Source: Nostoc sp. TCL240-02 (GTDB taxonomy: Bacteria > Cyanobacteriota > Cyanobacteriia > Cyanobacteriales > Nostocaceae). From it: DNA of 64,000 bases. The notes beneath the pieces were generated by a model. The model had not been told where the DNA came from and ran no database searches. It was given only the letters and a program-made list of their open reading frames with translations. The translations under genes and the position numbers were made by a program. The DNA lies in contig NZ_CP040094.1 of NCBI RefSeq assembly GCF_013343235.1, forward strand, positions 4,030,501 to 4,094,500. The letters run 5' to 3'. Below are positions 31,242-34,714 of the stretch, piece after piece (within the stretch, counting starts at the first letter, position 1; every line of letters begins with the position of its first letter).

Positions 31242-32483
31242 TTACGTAGTGTATTCGGCGTTAATCCTCACATAGTCGTAACTCAGATCGCAACCCCAAG
31301 CTTTACCCACGCCATAACCATTGCCAACGTTAACTGAGATTAACACCGTATCCTCTTGGAGATAAGCGCTTGTCGCTGCTTTTTTTAAATAAGCACTCGC
31401 TGCTGCACGATCAAAAGTTAAGGGTTGCCCATTTTCTAACATTAAAAAATTCCCTAACTTAATTTGCAGGTTTTCTTGCTCAAAGGGTATACCTGCACGT
31501 CCGGCGGCGGCGGCGATGCGTCCCCAGTTGGGATCTCGTCCAAAGATTGCAGATTTAACTAGGGATGAACCAGCGATGGTTTTGGCTATTTGTCGGGCTG
31601 AAATTTCATCATGGGCCCCTGTTACTTCCACTTCTATTAGACAAGTTGCGCCTTCACCATCACGAGCGATCGCTTTGGCTAAATGCTGGCAAACTGCTGT
31701 TAACATCGCCTCTAATTTCTCTGCTTCTGCGCCCCATTCTATAATTGCTGGGGTACGAGATTGACCATTTGCCAAGGCGATTAAGCTGTCGTTGGTACTA
31801 GTATCACCATCCACGGTAATGGAATTAAAGCTTCTATCTGCCGCCCTTGCTAACATTTGCTGCCACAGGGCTGGGGAAACCACAGCATCACAAGTAACAA
31901 ATGCCAACATGGTTGCCATGTTGGGGTGAATCATGCCAGAACCTTTGGCAATACCACCAATTCGTACTGGGCGATCGCCTACAATTGTCTCTAAAGCAAT
32001 AGATTTTGTTACCAAGTCTGTAGTGATAATGGCCCCAGCTGCGGCATCTGAACCTGTTGCTGATAGTGCTGCTACTACTTTGGGAATTCCACTTCGCAAA
32101 GCATCCATCTTAATTCTTTGACCGATCACACCAGTGGAAGCTAATAAGACGGATTCAGACGAGATGTTTAGTGCGTTAGCTATTGCCAGAGAAGACTCTA
32201 GGGTATCAAGGTAGCCTTGATTACCTGTAGCGGCATTTGCTTGTCCAGCGTTGCAAAGGATGGCACGAGCGCTAGGTTTGGCTTGCAAGCGTTGGCGACA
32301 ATATTCGACACAGGCAGCTTTAACTTGACTAGTGGTGAATACACCAGCTGCGATCGCTTCCACCTCTGAGAATATCAATGCTAAATCCGGCAACCCCGAA
32401 GGTTTCAACCCTGCGGTTATTCCCGCCGCCTGATACCCCCTTGGTGCTGTGACACCACCTGTAATTTTTTGCCAATCTGCCAT
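31242..32483 (-). CDS. argJ: Bifunctional glutamate N-acetyltransferase / amino-acid acetyltransferase
   Basis: A 413-residue ArgJ. The self-cleavage site is HPNMATMLAF with the nucleophile Thr191, which becomes the N-terminal residue of the beta chain. NAGQANAATG, the oxyanion region STGVIGQ (about 116-122), KGSGMIHPN and the C-terminal GYGVGKAWGCDL are conserved. The enzyme moves the acetyl group from N-acetylornithine to glutamate, recycling it in arginine synthesis, and in the bifunctional form also uses acetyl-CoA. It is full length. Upstream on the same strand lie two candidate small RNA genes and gatB. Confidence 0.95.
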   Translation of the reverse strand: MADWQKITGGVTAPRGYQAAGITAGLKPSGLPDLALIFSEVEAIAAGVFTTSQVKAACVEYCRQRLQAKPSARAILCNAGQANAATGNQGYLDTLESSLAIANALNISSESVLLASTGVIGQRIKMDALRSGIPKVVAALSATGSDAAAGAIITTDLVTKSIALETIVGDRPVRIGGIAKGSGMIHPNMATMLAFVTCDAVVSPALWQQMLARAADRSFNSITVDGDTSTNDSLIALANGQSRTPAIIEWGAEAEKLEAMLTAVCQHLAKAIARDGEGATCLIEVEVTGAHDEISARQIAKTIAGSSLVKSAIFGRDPNWGRIAAAAGRAGIPFEQENLQIKLGNFLMLENGQPLTFDRAAASAYLKKAATSAYLQEDTVLISVNVGNGYGVGKAWGCDLSYDYVRINAEYTT

Positions 32484-32563: not shown

Positions 32564-32708
32564 GTACAAGAGTTATGAGTTTCCCCCAGTTCCCTTGCTC
32601 CTCAATTCCCAGTGACTATTATGAGTTTATTTGCTGATGGCAATAATAATGCACCTGTTGGCGATTAGCATAATTGTTTTACCTTTCTTATGACGAAAGA
32701 CAAAGATG

Positions 32709-32736
32709 AAAAAAGAGAGCGACCCAAGTTGCTCTC
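32709..32736 (-). terminator. Intrinsic terminator of candidate sRNA A
   Basis: GAGAGC and GCTCTC pair across a 10-base loop, followed on the minus strand by TTTTTT (32709-32714). It is also placed to stop read-through from gatB. Confidence 0.85.
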
Positions 32737-32759
32737 CAGCTCATTACGGTGCATCTTTT
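32709..32759 (-). ncRNA. Candidate small RNA A (tandem sRNA pair)
   Basis: A predicted transcript of about 51 nt on the minus strand. It begins about 7 bases after a TATACT -10 box, contains AAGATGCACCGTAATGA then GCTGGAGAGC, and ends in a GAGAGC/GCTCTC hairpin followed by six T. The same layout, with the same length from -10 box to last T (63 bp) and the same core GATGCACC...ATGA.CTGGAGAGC, recurs 152 bp away (copy B). Not recognised as a known family. An alternative is that these are successive terminators of gatB, but conservation upstream of the hairpin argues for independent genes. Confidence 0.6.
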
Positions 32760-32765
32760 ACTCAC

Positions 32766-32793
32766 AGTATAGATTTGATTATCTAAGAGTTAA
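32766..32793 (-). promoter_or_regulatory. Predicted promoter of candidate sRNA A
   Basis: On the minus strand, TATACT (32766-32771) as -10 and TTAACT (32788-32793) as a weak -35, 16 bases apart. Placement relative to the conserved transcript matches copy B. Confidence 0.5.
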
Positions 32794-32860
32794 TACTTAT
32801 TAATTAAGGTTTTTTCTAAAATTTTAATTAAGCTGCTCCGTGAATACCACAAAGCTAGAT

Positions 32861-32888
32861 AAAAAAGAGAGCTACTTAGGCAGCTCTC
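32861..32888 (-). terminator. Intrinsic terminator of candidate sRNA B
   Basis: GAGAGCT and AGCTCTC form a 7-bp stem with an 8-base loop, then TTTTTT on the minus strand (32861-32866). Confidence 0.85.
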
Positions 32889-32911
32889 CAGATCATCAGG
32901 GTGCATCTACT
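32861..32911 (-). ncRNA. Candidate small RNA B (tandem sRNA pair)
   Basis: A predicted transcript of about 51 nt starting about 7 bases after TATAGT. It has TAGATGCACCCTGATGA then TCTGGAGAGC, and ends in the stem GAGAGCT/AGCTCTC plus six T. Compared with copy A the -10 region, the ATGCACC block, the CTGGAGAGC block and the terminator stem are kept, while the loop and spacer bases vary. It lies between gatB (ends 33239) and copy A. No ribosome site precedes the internal ATG. Confidence 0.6.
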
Positions 32912-32917
32912 TACCAC

Positions 32918-32947
32918 ACTATATCATTTTAGGTATGCGGGTAGTCA
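32918..32947 (-). promoter_or_regulatory. Predicted promoter of candidate sRNA B
   Basis: On the minus strand, TATAGT (32918-32923) as -10 with TGACTA (32942-32947) as a possible -35, 18 bases apart. Confidence 0.5.
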
Positions 32948-33147
32948 CCAGTTTTTATATGAAGATTCCATGAAGAAATACCGAGCAAATACTTACTTGG
33001 GAATTGGGAAGAGATAAAAGAGACAAAGAAAAAACTTGTTTAATTCTCGTTGTCCCTCTCATCTTCCTACTCCAGTACTCTCTACTGCTTCACCCTTCAA
33101 ATCTGACCTAACAGACTAATAGCGATCCATCGCATTAATTTTGCAAG

Positions 33148-33203
33148 GTTTGTAGTAATCGATTTATCGCTCAGTTTTAAGCACTAAAGTGCTTACTACA
33201 AAC
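33148..33203. repeat. Palindromic element with 11-bp arms downstream of gatB
   Basis: GTTTGTAGTAA (33148-33158) and TTACTACAAAC (33193-33203) are perfect inverted arms. A nested palindrome GCACTAAAGTGC lies next to the right arm. It is a dispersed-repeat type and sits 36 bp past the gatB stop. Confidence 0.7.
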
Positions 33204-33238
33204 TTTTACAACCCTTCAGGAACTTATGGGACAGACTA

Positions 33239-34714
33239 CTAGGCGTTCAGTTTCTTTTCTACCAATTCGTTAGTCAGCTTCGGATCGGCACGTTTGGCTG
33301 TCTTTTTGAGAACTTGTCCAACAAAGAAGCCTTTAAGGTTGGTGTTACCGTTGCGATACTTTTCTAGTTCTTTGGGATTGGCGGCTATGACTTCATCAAC
33401 GATGGGTTCTAGTACACTAGGATCGGTGATTAACTCAAGACCTGCAAAGGCTTTTTCAGGAGAAATCCCATTGAGCAAATCTGGCAACTTTTCTTTAGCT
33501 TGAGCATTGCTAATTTTCCCGGTTTCAATGCGAGTAATGATCTCAGCTAAATTAGTGGGAGTCAGCCCGATTTGAGTAATACTGAGTTTTTGCTTATTAA
33601 GGTAGGCGGCAATATCTTGAGTAATCCAGTTTGCAGCAGCTTTGGGATTTGCTCCAGATGCGATCGCAGTTTCAAAATATTCCGTTACTGGACGATCTTC
33701 TGTCAATACTCGCGCATCATAAGCCGAAAGCCCCAACTCACTTTCATAATGATGGCGTTTTTGGGCTGGTAATTCTGGTAATTCGCTGCGCCACTTCTCT
33801 AATTCTGAATCCGTCACCTCAATTGGTGCTAAATCTGGTTCGGGGAAGTAGCGGTAATCGCTAGAACCTTCTTTTACCCGCATACTACTTGTGCGTTGAG
33901 CGCCTTCTTCCCACAGCCGAGTTTCTTGGATGATGCGCTCGCCTGCTTCGATGGCGGCGATTTGGCGCTCAATTTCGTAGTCAATCGCTCGTTGGATGGC
34001 GCTGAAGGAGTTCATGTTTTTAATTTCTACCTTGGTGCCAAATTCCTCTCGTCCTACTGGACGCACAGATATGTTGACATCGCAGCGCAGAGATCCTTCT
34101 TGCATATTGCCATCACTCACGCCGAGATAGCGCACAATCCGGCGTAACTCTTCGGCATATTCAGCAGCTTCTAATCCAGAACGCAAATCAGGTTCCGAGA
34201 CAATTTCCACTAACGGTATACCTGCGCGATTGTAGTCTACCAGAGAATAGGAAGAACCAGAGAGGCGATCGCTACCCGCATGTACCAATTTTCCTGCATC
34301 TTCTTCCATGTGCAGACGTGTAATACCAATGCGTTTGCGGCTGGGATTGCCTTCAGCATCTACCAATTCTATTTCTAACCAACCATGTTCTGCGATCGGT
34401 AGATCGTATTGAGAAATTTGGTAATTTTTGGGTAGGTCAGGATAAAAATACTGTTTCCGGTCAAACTTGCTATATCTTGCAATTTGACAATTCAGTGCCA
34501 AACCAGTTTTGACAGCGTATTCTAATACTTTTTCATTGAGTACAGGTAAGACCCCAGGTAAACCCATACAAACCGGGTCAATGTTAGTATTTGGGTCAGC
34601 ACCAAATGCCGTAGAGCTATTAGAGAAAATTTTGGTCTTGGTACTCAACTGACAATGGGTTTCTAGACCAATAATCGCTTCATACTCAGTTTTTACAGTT
34701 GTAGCAGTCGTCAT
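33239..34714 (-). CDS. gatB: Asp-tRNA(Asn)/Glu-tRNA(Gln) amidotransferase subunit B
   Basis: A 491-residue GatB of normal length. Landmarks are YEAIIGLETHCQL at the start, the metal/ATP-pocket region GLPGVLPVLNEKV, RKQYFYPDLPKNYQISQYD, HMEEDAGK, DYNRAGIPLVEIVSEPD and the C-terminal YqeY-like tRNA-binding tail (SNAQAKEKLPDLL, GNTNLKGFFVGQV). With GatA and GatC it converts mischarged Glu-tRNA(Gln) to Gln-tRNA(Gln), using ammonia from glutamine hydrolysis. gatA and gatC are not in the window, which is common in cyanobacteria. Confidence 0.96.
   Translation of the reverse strand: MTTATTVKTEYEAIIGLETHCQLSTKTKIFSNSSTAFGADPNTNIDPVCMGLPGVLPVLNEKVLEYAVKTGLALNCQIARYSKFDRKQYFYPDLPKNYQISQYDLPIAEHGWLEIELVDAEGNPSRKRIGITRLHMEEDAGKLVHAGSDRLSGSSYSLVDYNRAGIPLVEIVSEPDLRSGLEAAEYAEELRRIVRYLGVSDGNMQEGSLRCDVNISVRPVGREEFGTKVEIKNMNSFSAIQRAIDYEIERQIAAIEAGERIIQETRLWEEGAQRTSSMRVKEGSSDYRYFPEPDLAPIEVTDSELEKWRSELPELPAQKRHHYESELGLSAYDARVLTEDRPVTEYFETAIASGANPKAAANWITQDIAAYLNKQKLSITQIGLTPTNLAEIITRIETGKISNAQAKEKLPDLLNGISPEKAFAGLELITDPSVLEPIVDEVIAANPKELEKYRNGNTNLKGFFVGQVLKKTAKRADPKLTNELVEKKLNA

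Follow-up and report, generated by a model that had tools for sequence, protein, structure and literature searches.

A predicted short RNA of the NsiR1 superfamily in tandem between gatB and argJ of Nostoc sp. TCL240-02 and its relatives

NsiR1, HetR and other described short RNAs

The closest described system is NsiR1 (Rfam RF02399), the hetF-linked short RNA of heterocystous cyanobacteria. According to the accessible sections of the papers cited here, NsiR1 is multi-copy and tandem (PMC9045159), each copy having its own promoter and terminator, and an array is on record in Nodularia (PMC3610870). NsiR1 of PCC 7120 is reported to act in antisense on hetF and, at the translation start, on alr3234, and its sibling copies are reported to differ in their targets (PMC9045159). 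For the regulatory inputs, the same kind of partial sources define the DIF1 promoter motif (PMC6133370), place hetZ directly under HetR and have HetZ act, directly or indirectly, through DIF1 promoters (PMC11298460). The core GGG-N5-CCC is described as indispensable for HetR binding (PMC4649674; PMC4192349), and the HetR site of hetP, a direct target, is given as GAGGGGTCTAACCCCTC (PMC4192349).

Two further reports deserve mention. In Limnospira indica, which forms no heterocysts, the accessible text describes an expressed RNA of 57 nt, RNA162, said to resemble NsiR1 (PMC8400943); the likeness is by description, without its locus, and RNA162 may not be of the gatB type discussed below. In PCC 7120, the available part of PMC4734099 lists the verified sRNA 4547237r (51 nt) and NsiR8 (4547556r) at 171 nt, with homologs of both reported only in heterocystous genomes. 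The size of 4547237r is similar to that predicted here, and its start lies 319 nt from that of NsiR8, against 318 nt between the gatB-argJ units of genome G062, but the 171 nt of NsiR8 and the restriction of both RNAs to heterocystous genomes set them apart from the gatB-argJ units. The two may be the gatB-argJ pair of PCC 7120, a lead in which the match in spacing may be a coincidence. The accessible text of the PCC 7120 HetR ChIP-seq paper does not contain the words gatB or argJ, and no peak in its table, where most rows are given as locus tags, is labelled with either name. No description of a gatB-linked NsiR1-like RNA was found in the literature searched, whose scope did not extend to supplement tables, Ionescu 2010 or Brenes-Alvarez 2020, so that an earlier mention is possible.

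Two units between gatB and argJ and their kinship with NsiR1

The window, by which we mean the whole stretch of 64,000 nt analysed, covers positions 4030501-4094500 of the genome of Nostoc sp. TCL240-02, a single contig of 7.89 Mb. The first-pass annotation, made from the letters alone, had described two 63-bp units on the minus strand, 152 bp apart, between gatB and argJ. This description was confirmed: the units lie at 32709-32771 and 32861-32923, share 76% identity, and are flanked by genes that NCBIfam models identify as gatB and argJ (Table 1). Both units also contain every element ascribed to them, namely a TATAnT box, GATGCACC, CTGGAGAGC, a GAGAGC/GCTCTC stem and six T; the predicted start lies about 5 nt beyond the box. 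The seed of unit B is altered (CACCGTAATGA), and unit B is a derived copy of the tandem pair. The folding z-scores of the 52-nt forms are -2.78 for unit A and -0.50 for unit B; the fold signal alone is modest, and the comparative evidence is stronger. Just downstream of gatB, the window also holds an inverted repeat (33145-33206) with 27-nt arms that are 78% complementary.

Table 1. Positions, within the window, of the two units, their elements and the neighbouring genes
Feature	Position	Strand	Basis or remark
Unit A, 63-nt form	32861-32923	-	upstream copy
Unit B, 63-nt form	32709-32771	-	second copy
Unit A, predicted RNA (about 52 nt)	32861-32912	-	predicted start 32912; end of T-run 32861
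Unit A, seed GTAGATGCACCCTGATGAT	32892-32910	-	alignment, per-position counts in 317 distinct units, Rfam alignment
Unit A, terminator hairpin and T-run	32861-32889	-	covariation count, fold
Unit A, -10 box TATAGT	32918-32923	-	sequence; kept in relatives
Unit A, decayed HetR-type core GGT-GACTA-CCC	32939-32949	-	about -37 to -27; one base off GGG-N5-CCC
Unit B, predicted RNA with diverged seed GATGCACCGTAATGA	32709-32760	-	sequence; R1 score
Unit B, terminator hairpin and T-run	32709-32737	-	sequence, covariation count
Unit B, -10 box TATACT	32766-32771	-	sequence
Unit B, upstream remnant half-site AAGTATTAACTCTTA	32784-32798	-	palindrome register
gatB, upstream anchor of the sRNA locus	33239-34714	-	NCBIfam TIGR00133; synteny
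argJ, downstream neighbour	31242-32483	-	NCBIfam TIGR00120; synteny

Comparison was based on an alignment (A1) of 32 diverse units that include both A and B, and a covariance model, R1, was derived from it. In this alignment the 9-bp terminator stem is paired in 92.7% of cells, and it covaries: the covariation value is 0.331, compared with 0.215 (sd 0.018) in shuffles, none of 500 of which reach 0.331, and with a maximum of 0.160 when the stem is slid. Conservation had been placed earlier in the 5' part and in the terminator stem; the stem bears this out, and the 5' part is better described as one block reaching from the promoter as far as about position 19 of the RNA. Since the units were gathered by the seed pattern GATGCACC with at most one mismatch, the invariance of positions 6-13 is partly due to selection. 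In its own genome R1 scores unit A at 73.9 bits and unit B at 55.5 bits, values that are not independent because both sequences are in the model, and the NsiR1-type copies at 25.1 bits or less. The window pair combines an R1 match with a position between gatB and argJ, the two marks of this subfamily.

At the gathering score no Rfam family is found in the window. The Rfam search proposed with the first-pass annotation was informative for one unit only: with the threshold relaxed, NsiR1 comes up for unit A at 32.7 bits (E 2e-4), short of its gathering score of 39, but not for unit B, and no other match in the window is informative. Of six distant loci, three show NsiR1, again below its threshold, and no family other than NsiR1 attains E 0.01 in any of the six. 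The 5' block GTAGATGCACCCTGAT is common to unit A (16/16) and the hetF-linked NsiR1 copies of the same genome, and has diverged in unit B. The earlier doubt about kinship with NsiR1 has therefore to be given up, given the sub-threshold match of unit A and this common block. The hetF-linked array of the genome lies at 3891184-3892389, about 170 kb from the window pair, which is not in that tandem array. The two types share the block, the short size and the tandem arrangement, but the window pair differs by its gatB-argJ position, its GAGAG-type terminator and the lack of the DIF1 motif, TCCGGA at -35 being found in neither unit; its relatives differ further by a HetR-type palindrome, present in most of them, and by their occurrence in genera without heterocysts. 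To judge from sequence, the window units represent a distinct gatB-argJ subfamily with the same 5' block, another terminator and another promoter.

Additional NsiR1-type copies occur in the same genome. Nine other copies passing the filter have a DIF1-like motif at -34 or -35 with at most one mismatch. A second array near 5.927 Mb (G000 C1:5927393-5927737, minus strand) comprises three NsiR1-type units away from hetF, both units that pass the script filter carrying DIF1-like motifs. A single NsiR1-type gene with TCCGGA at -34 lies between cobM and lgt (G000 C1:6725208-6725258, plus strand); it is found in the same place in genomes G494 (L386) and G201 (L387), and G245 (L383) has one NsiR1-type gene beside cobM. 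The cobM-lgt site appears to be a third conserved locus of the NsiR1 superfamily. An array of ten NsiR1-type units in tandem, carrying DIF1-like motifs, occurs in a genome from another family of the order (L374, G494 C1:1239913-1241159), and hetF was not found in the 10-kb stretch around it. One further pattern match, in L103, was dismissed as a chance match.

Distribution, promoter classes and co-occurrence with HetR

A first, strict pattern matched 1 of 59 genomes and missed the units of the window's own genome because it was too rigid. The 271-bp stretch with both units has DNA matches in 49 of the 59, i.e., in all 35 genomes of the genus (own included) and in 14 of 24 outside it, in some genomes restricted to the unit A part, and the pair is therefore conserved far beyond chance and is not specific to the strain. 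Eight related genomes have a single unit with an A-like 5' part and a B-like downstream flank, as expected from recombination between tandem copies. The covariance-model search of cyanobacterial genomes, which had also been suggested at the outset, extended this range: at E<=0.01 R1 matches 217/217 genomes of the family (6 with E>1e-6 only) and 272/388 of the class (81 with E>1e-6 only), and at E<=1e-7 it matches 86/386 genomes of the phylum. Weak matches to the terminator only, such as that in genome G289, were not counted as members.

When named genomes were scanned with a 24-base pattern from unit A, at least 117 stretches matched, 80 of them named among the matches listed, including Symplocastrum, Microcoleus, Microseira wollei, Coleofasciculus, Argonema and Limnofasciculus. 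None of these is known to form heterocysts. Units were found by script in 123 of 127 loci, with both genes in the stretch in 62, gatB alone in 24, argJ alone in 24 and neither in 13, and 4 of 217 pattern units in the same set lie on the strand opposite to the genes. Seventy-five of the 80 named loci passed the unit filter; among these matches, 38 loci have one unit, 18 two, six three, nine four, three five and one six. Species present under both a handle and a name had their distinct sequences counted once. gatB lies directly upstream in 14 of 20 more distant stretches, and of the 299 distinct units whose stretch includes gatB or argJ, 191 have both genes, gatB before and argJ after them. Many cyanobacteria, some of them without heterocysts, thus have predicted units of this type next to gatB.

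The promoters were compared in 532 distinct units, 103 of which, with neither gatB, argJ nor hetF in the stretch, were left out. Allowing one mismatch, the palindrome GGGG-N5-CCCC is found in 186 of 299 gatB/argJ units, starting mostly at -39 or -40, and in 0 of 130 hetF-side units, while DIF1 at -38 to -32 is found in 0 of 299 and in 120 of 130 (84 of them exact), respectively; composition shuffles yield 0.5 palindromes and 5.7 DIF1 motifs per 299 units, and 0.5 and 1.9 per 130. The two promoter classes separate by locus. A single DIF1 motif among 337 GAGAG-type units belongs to a DIF1-type unit let in by the loose filter. Since DIF1-type copies with the same 5' block, single or in arrays, also occur outside the order, both classes are widespread.

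The palindrome contains the published core of HetR, GGG-N5-CCC, and looks like a HetR site. It resembles the promoter palindrome of hetP, often with TCA following, but the product here would be an sRNA, the site is putative and the core in the window copies is decayed. When the Nostoc and B types are set aside, the exact core is present in 172 of the 283 distinct units that remain, and 267 have it with one mismatch; in DIF1 units the figures are 0/219 and 2/219. With G and C runs longer than three, however, a spacer of 6 or 7 fits about as frequently as one of 5. Among the matches listed, the exact core is present in at least one unit of 52 of the 63 named loci outside the Nostoc type (62 of 63 with one mismatch) and in 0 of the 12 Nostoc-type loci. 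Nostoc-type A units have GGT-N5-CCC (0/38 exact, 35/38 with one mismatch), and B-type units have a half-site, 0 of 17 keeping the core even with one mismatch. The window follows suit, with five of six core bases in unit A and a half-site in unit B.

It was initially thought that the gatB-argJ class is independent of HetR, an idea dropped when co-occurrence was considered. With HetR called by PF03574, 77 of the 386 phylum genomes have both RNA and HetR, nine the RNA only, three HetR only and 297 neither (phi 0.91); outside the window's own family the counts are 35, 9, 2 and 297. A set of 80 class-level genomes, hand-picked from those with strong R1 matches and spread over families, has HetR in 79, the match in G537 being a fragment at a contig end; nine of the 80 are also in the 386. 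Genome G246 has the RNA and lacks HetR. Of five genomes with a single seed match, three lack HetR (G051, G483, G770) and two have it (G390, G457); among the matches listed, the 21 other genomes of the seed-match set all have HetR. The palindrome is absent in eight of the nine HetR-less phylum genomes with the RNA, the exception being G042, which keeps GGGG-N5-CCCA, whereas all 14 HetR-bearing loci compared with them have it in at least one unit. As seven of the eight belong to one genus (g82), the eighth being G051, they amount to two independent cases. In these seven g82 genomes (L324, L394-L399) the RNA persists without the palindrome, and gatB and argJ were not found in the stretches examined. 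Shared descent explains part of the association between RNA and HetR, so that a Fisher p value computed for it would be too favourable, and the two may track each other only through descent in the same lineages.

Alternative readings and a proposed HetR-linked RNA

The reading we favour, at a probability of roughly 70%, is that the units are genes for trans-acting sRNAs of the NsiR1 superfamily at gatB-argJ, with promoters of their own, an ancestral promoter under HetR control and a seed that pairs with mRNAs. The most serious competitor is that the palindrome is read by another regulator which shares the distribution of HetR, the RNA itself not being HetR-controlled. Such a regulator would account for the window genus, which has HetR and no exact core, for the near-palindrome in HetR-less G042, and for the survival of the RNA in the nine HetR-less phylum genomes and G246; we consider it unlikely, given that the published HetR core is part of the motif, which is also similar to the site of hetP, and that the RNA follows HetR with a phi of 0.91. 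It is less probable still that the units are hetF-type NsiR1 copies of the usual kind at an outlying site, with the same expression in heterocysts. The same 5' block, the Rfam match and the reported multi-copy, tandem nature of NsiR1 (PMC9045159, accessible sections) speak for this, but DIF1 at -35 is present in 0/299 gatB/argJ units as opposed to 120/130 hetF units, the score stays below the NsiR1 gathering score, and the same locus is present in named genera that are not known to form heterocysts.

The location on the same strand as gatB and argJ, with terminators between the two genes, could also suggest a cis element, i.e., an attenuator or leader of argJ or the terminator at the end of gatB, rather than a free RNA. 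This is very improbable, since every unit comes with a conserved promoter and seed of its own and some species have a unit away from argJ or from both genes. In the genus there is a conserved argJ-leader element (window 32622-32700, minus strand) containing GGTGCATT, which could pair with GATGCACC; across 126 distinct leaders of many genera there is no pairing signal (mean duplex energy -14.87, compared with -14.83 in shuffles; mean z -0.02), and the argJ leader was rejected as a general target. Hardly credible is a gene for a small peptide with the ATG in GATGCACC as its start codon, even though 255 of 317 distinct units have no stop in this frame over 62 nt: third codon positions are equally fixed (positions 12, 15 and 18 in 317, 316 and 316 of the 317, in a block partly selected by the pattern), the spacing to the T-run differs between units by single bases, about 6 nt before the ATG leave no room for a ribosome site, and several hetF copies stop after MHPDN.

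What the first-pass annotation had called independent short RNAs is supported as regards the own -10 box, the exposed conserved 5' seed, the intrinsic terminator and the wide conservation, and is not supported as regards separateness from NsiR1. For the favoured trans-acting RNA we infer the following mode of action. Each unit would be transcribed from its own promoter into an RNA of about 52 nt, with the exposed, unpaired 5' seed GTAGATGCACCCTGATGAT followed by the terminator hairpin, and by analogy with published NsiR1 the seed would pair with the start regions of mRNAs and block their translation. When the complement of the seed was searched as a 17-mer with at most two mismatches in at least 26 genomes, no target was found (reversed-pattern control, 0-1 per genome), a search for near-perfect complements that would miss ordinary imperfect targets; all 20 stretches to which such complements were traced hold family members, 18 by the filter and two (L383, L393) on re-inspection. 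Tandem duplication would alter the dose and let the seeds diverge, unit B being such a diverged copy.

As the ancestral promoter of the locus would carry the HetR-type palindrome GGGG-N5-CCCC at about -39, direct switching by HetR is proposed, the sister copies beside hetF and elsewhere being presumably switched through DIF1 promoters. At the level of the family the proposed link to HetR is strong; for the two promoters in the window it is weak. With the palindrome decayed in the window genus, HetR control there may be weak, changed or lost, and it is least secure in the window strain itself, in view of the GGT-N5-CCC core of unit A and the half-site of unit B. It is tempting, at somewhat less than even odds, to regard the gatB-linked sRNA as a core ancestral direct target of HetR, from or beside which the NsiR1-type copies would have arisen under DIF1, i.e., HetZ-dependent, promoters.

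The gatB-linked RNAs appear to be relatives of NsiR1, the heterocyst RNA, and to form a family that is widespread and has drawn little notice. The NsiR1 family would thereby fall into two classes that share a seed and differ in their input, a division relevant to the assembly of heterocyst control. A short RNA of this kind, with a palindrome of HetR type, occurs in 77 of the 80 HetR-bearing phylum genomes and offers one concrete, testable gene. If the proposal is true, the gatB-linked sRNA would be a HetR target in HetR-bearing cyanobacteria, heterocystous or not, and, given the two promoter classes, one seed would receive input from both arms of the HetR cascade, from HetR itself and from HetZ through DIF1. 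A conserved sRNA output of this kind would then be one answer to the role of HetR in species without heterocysts.
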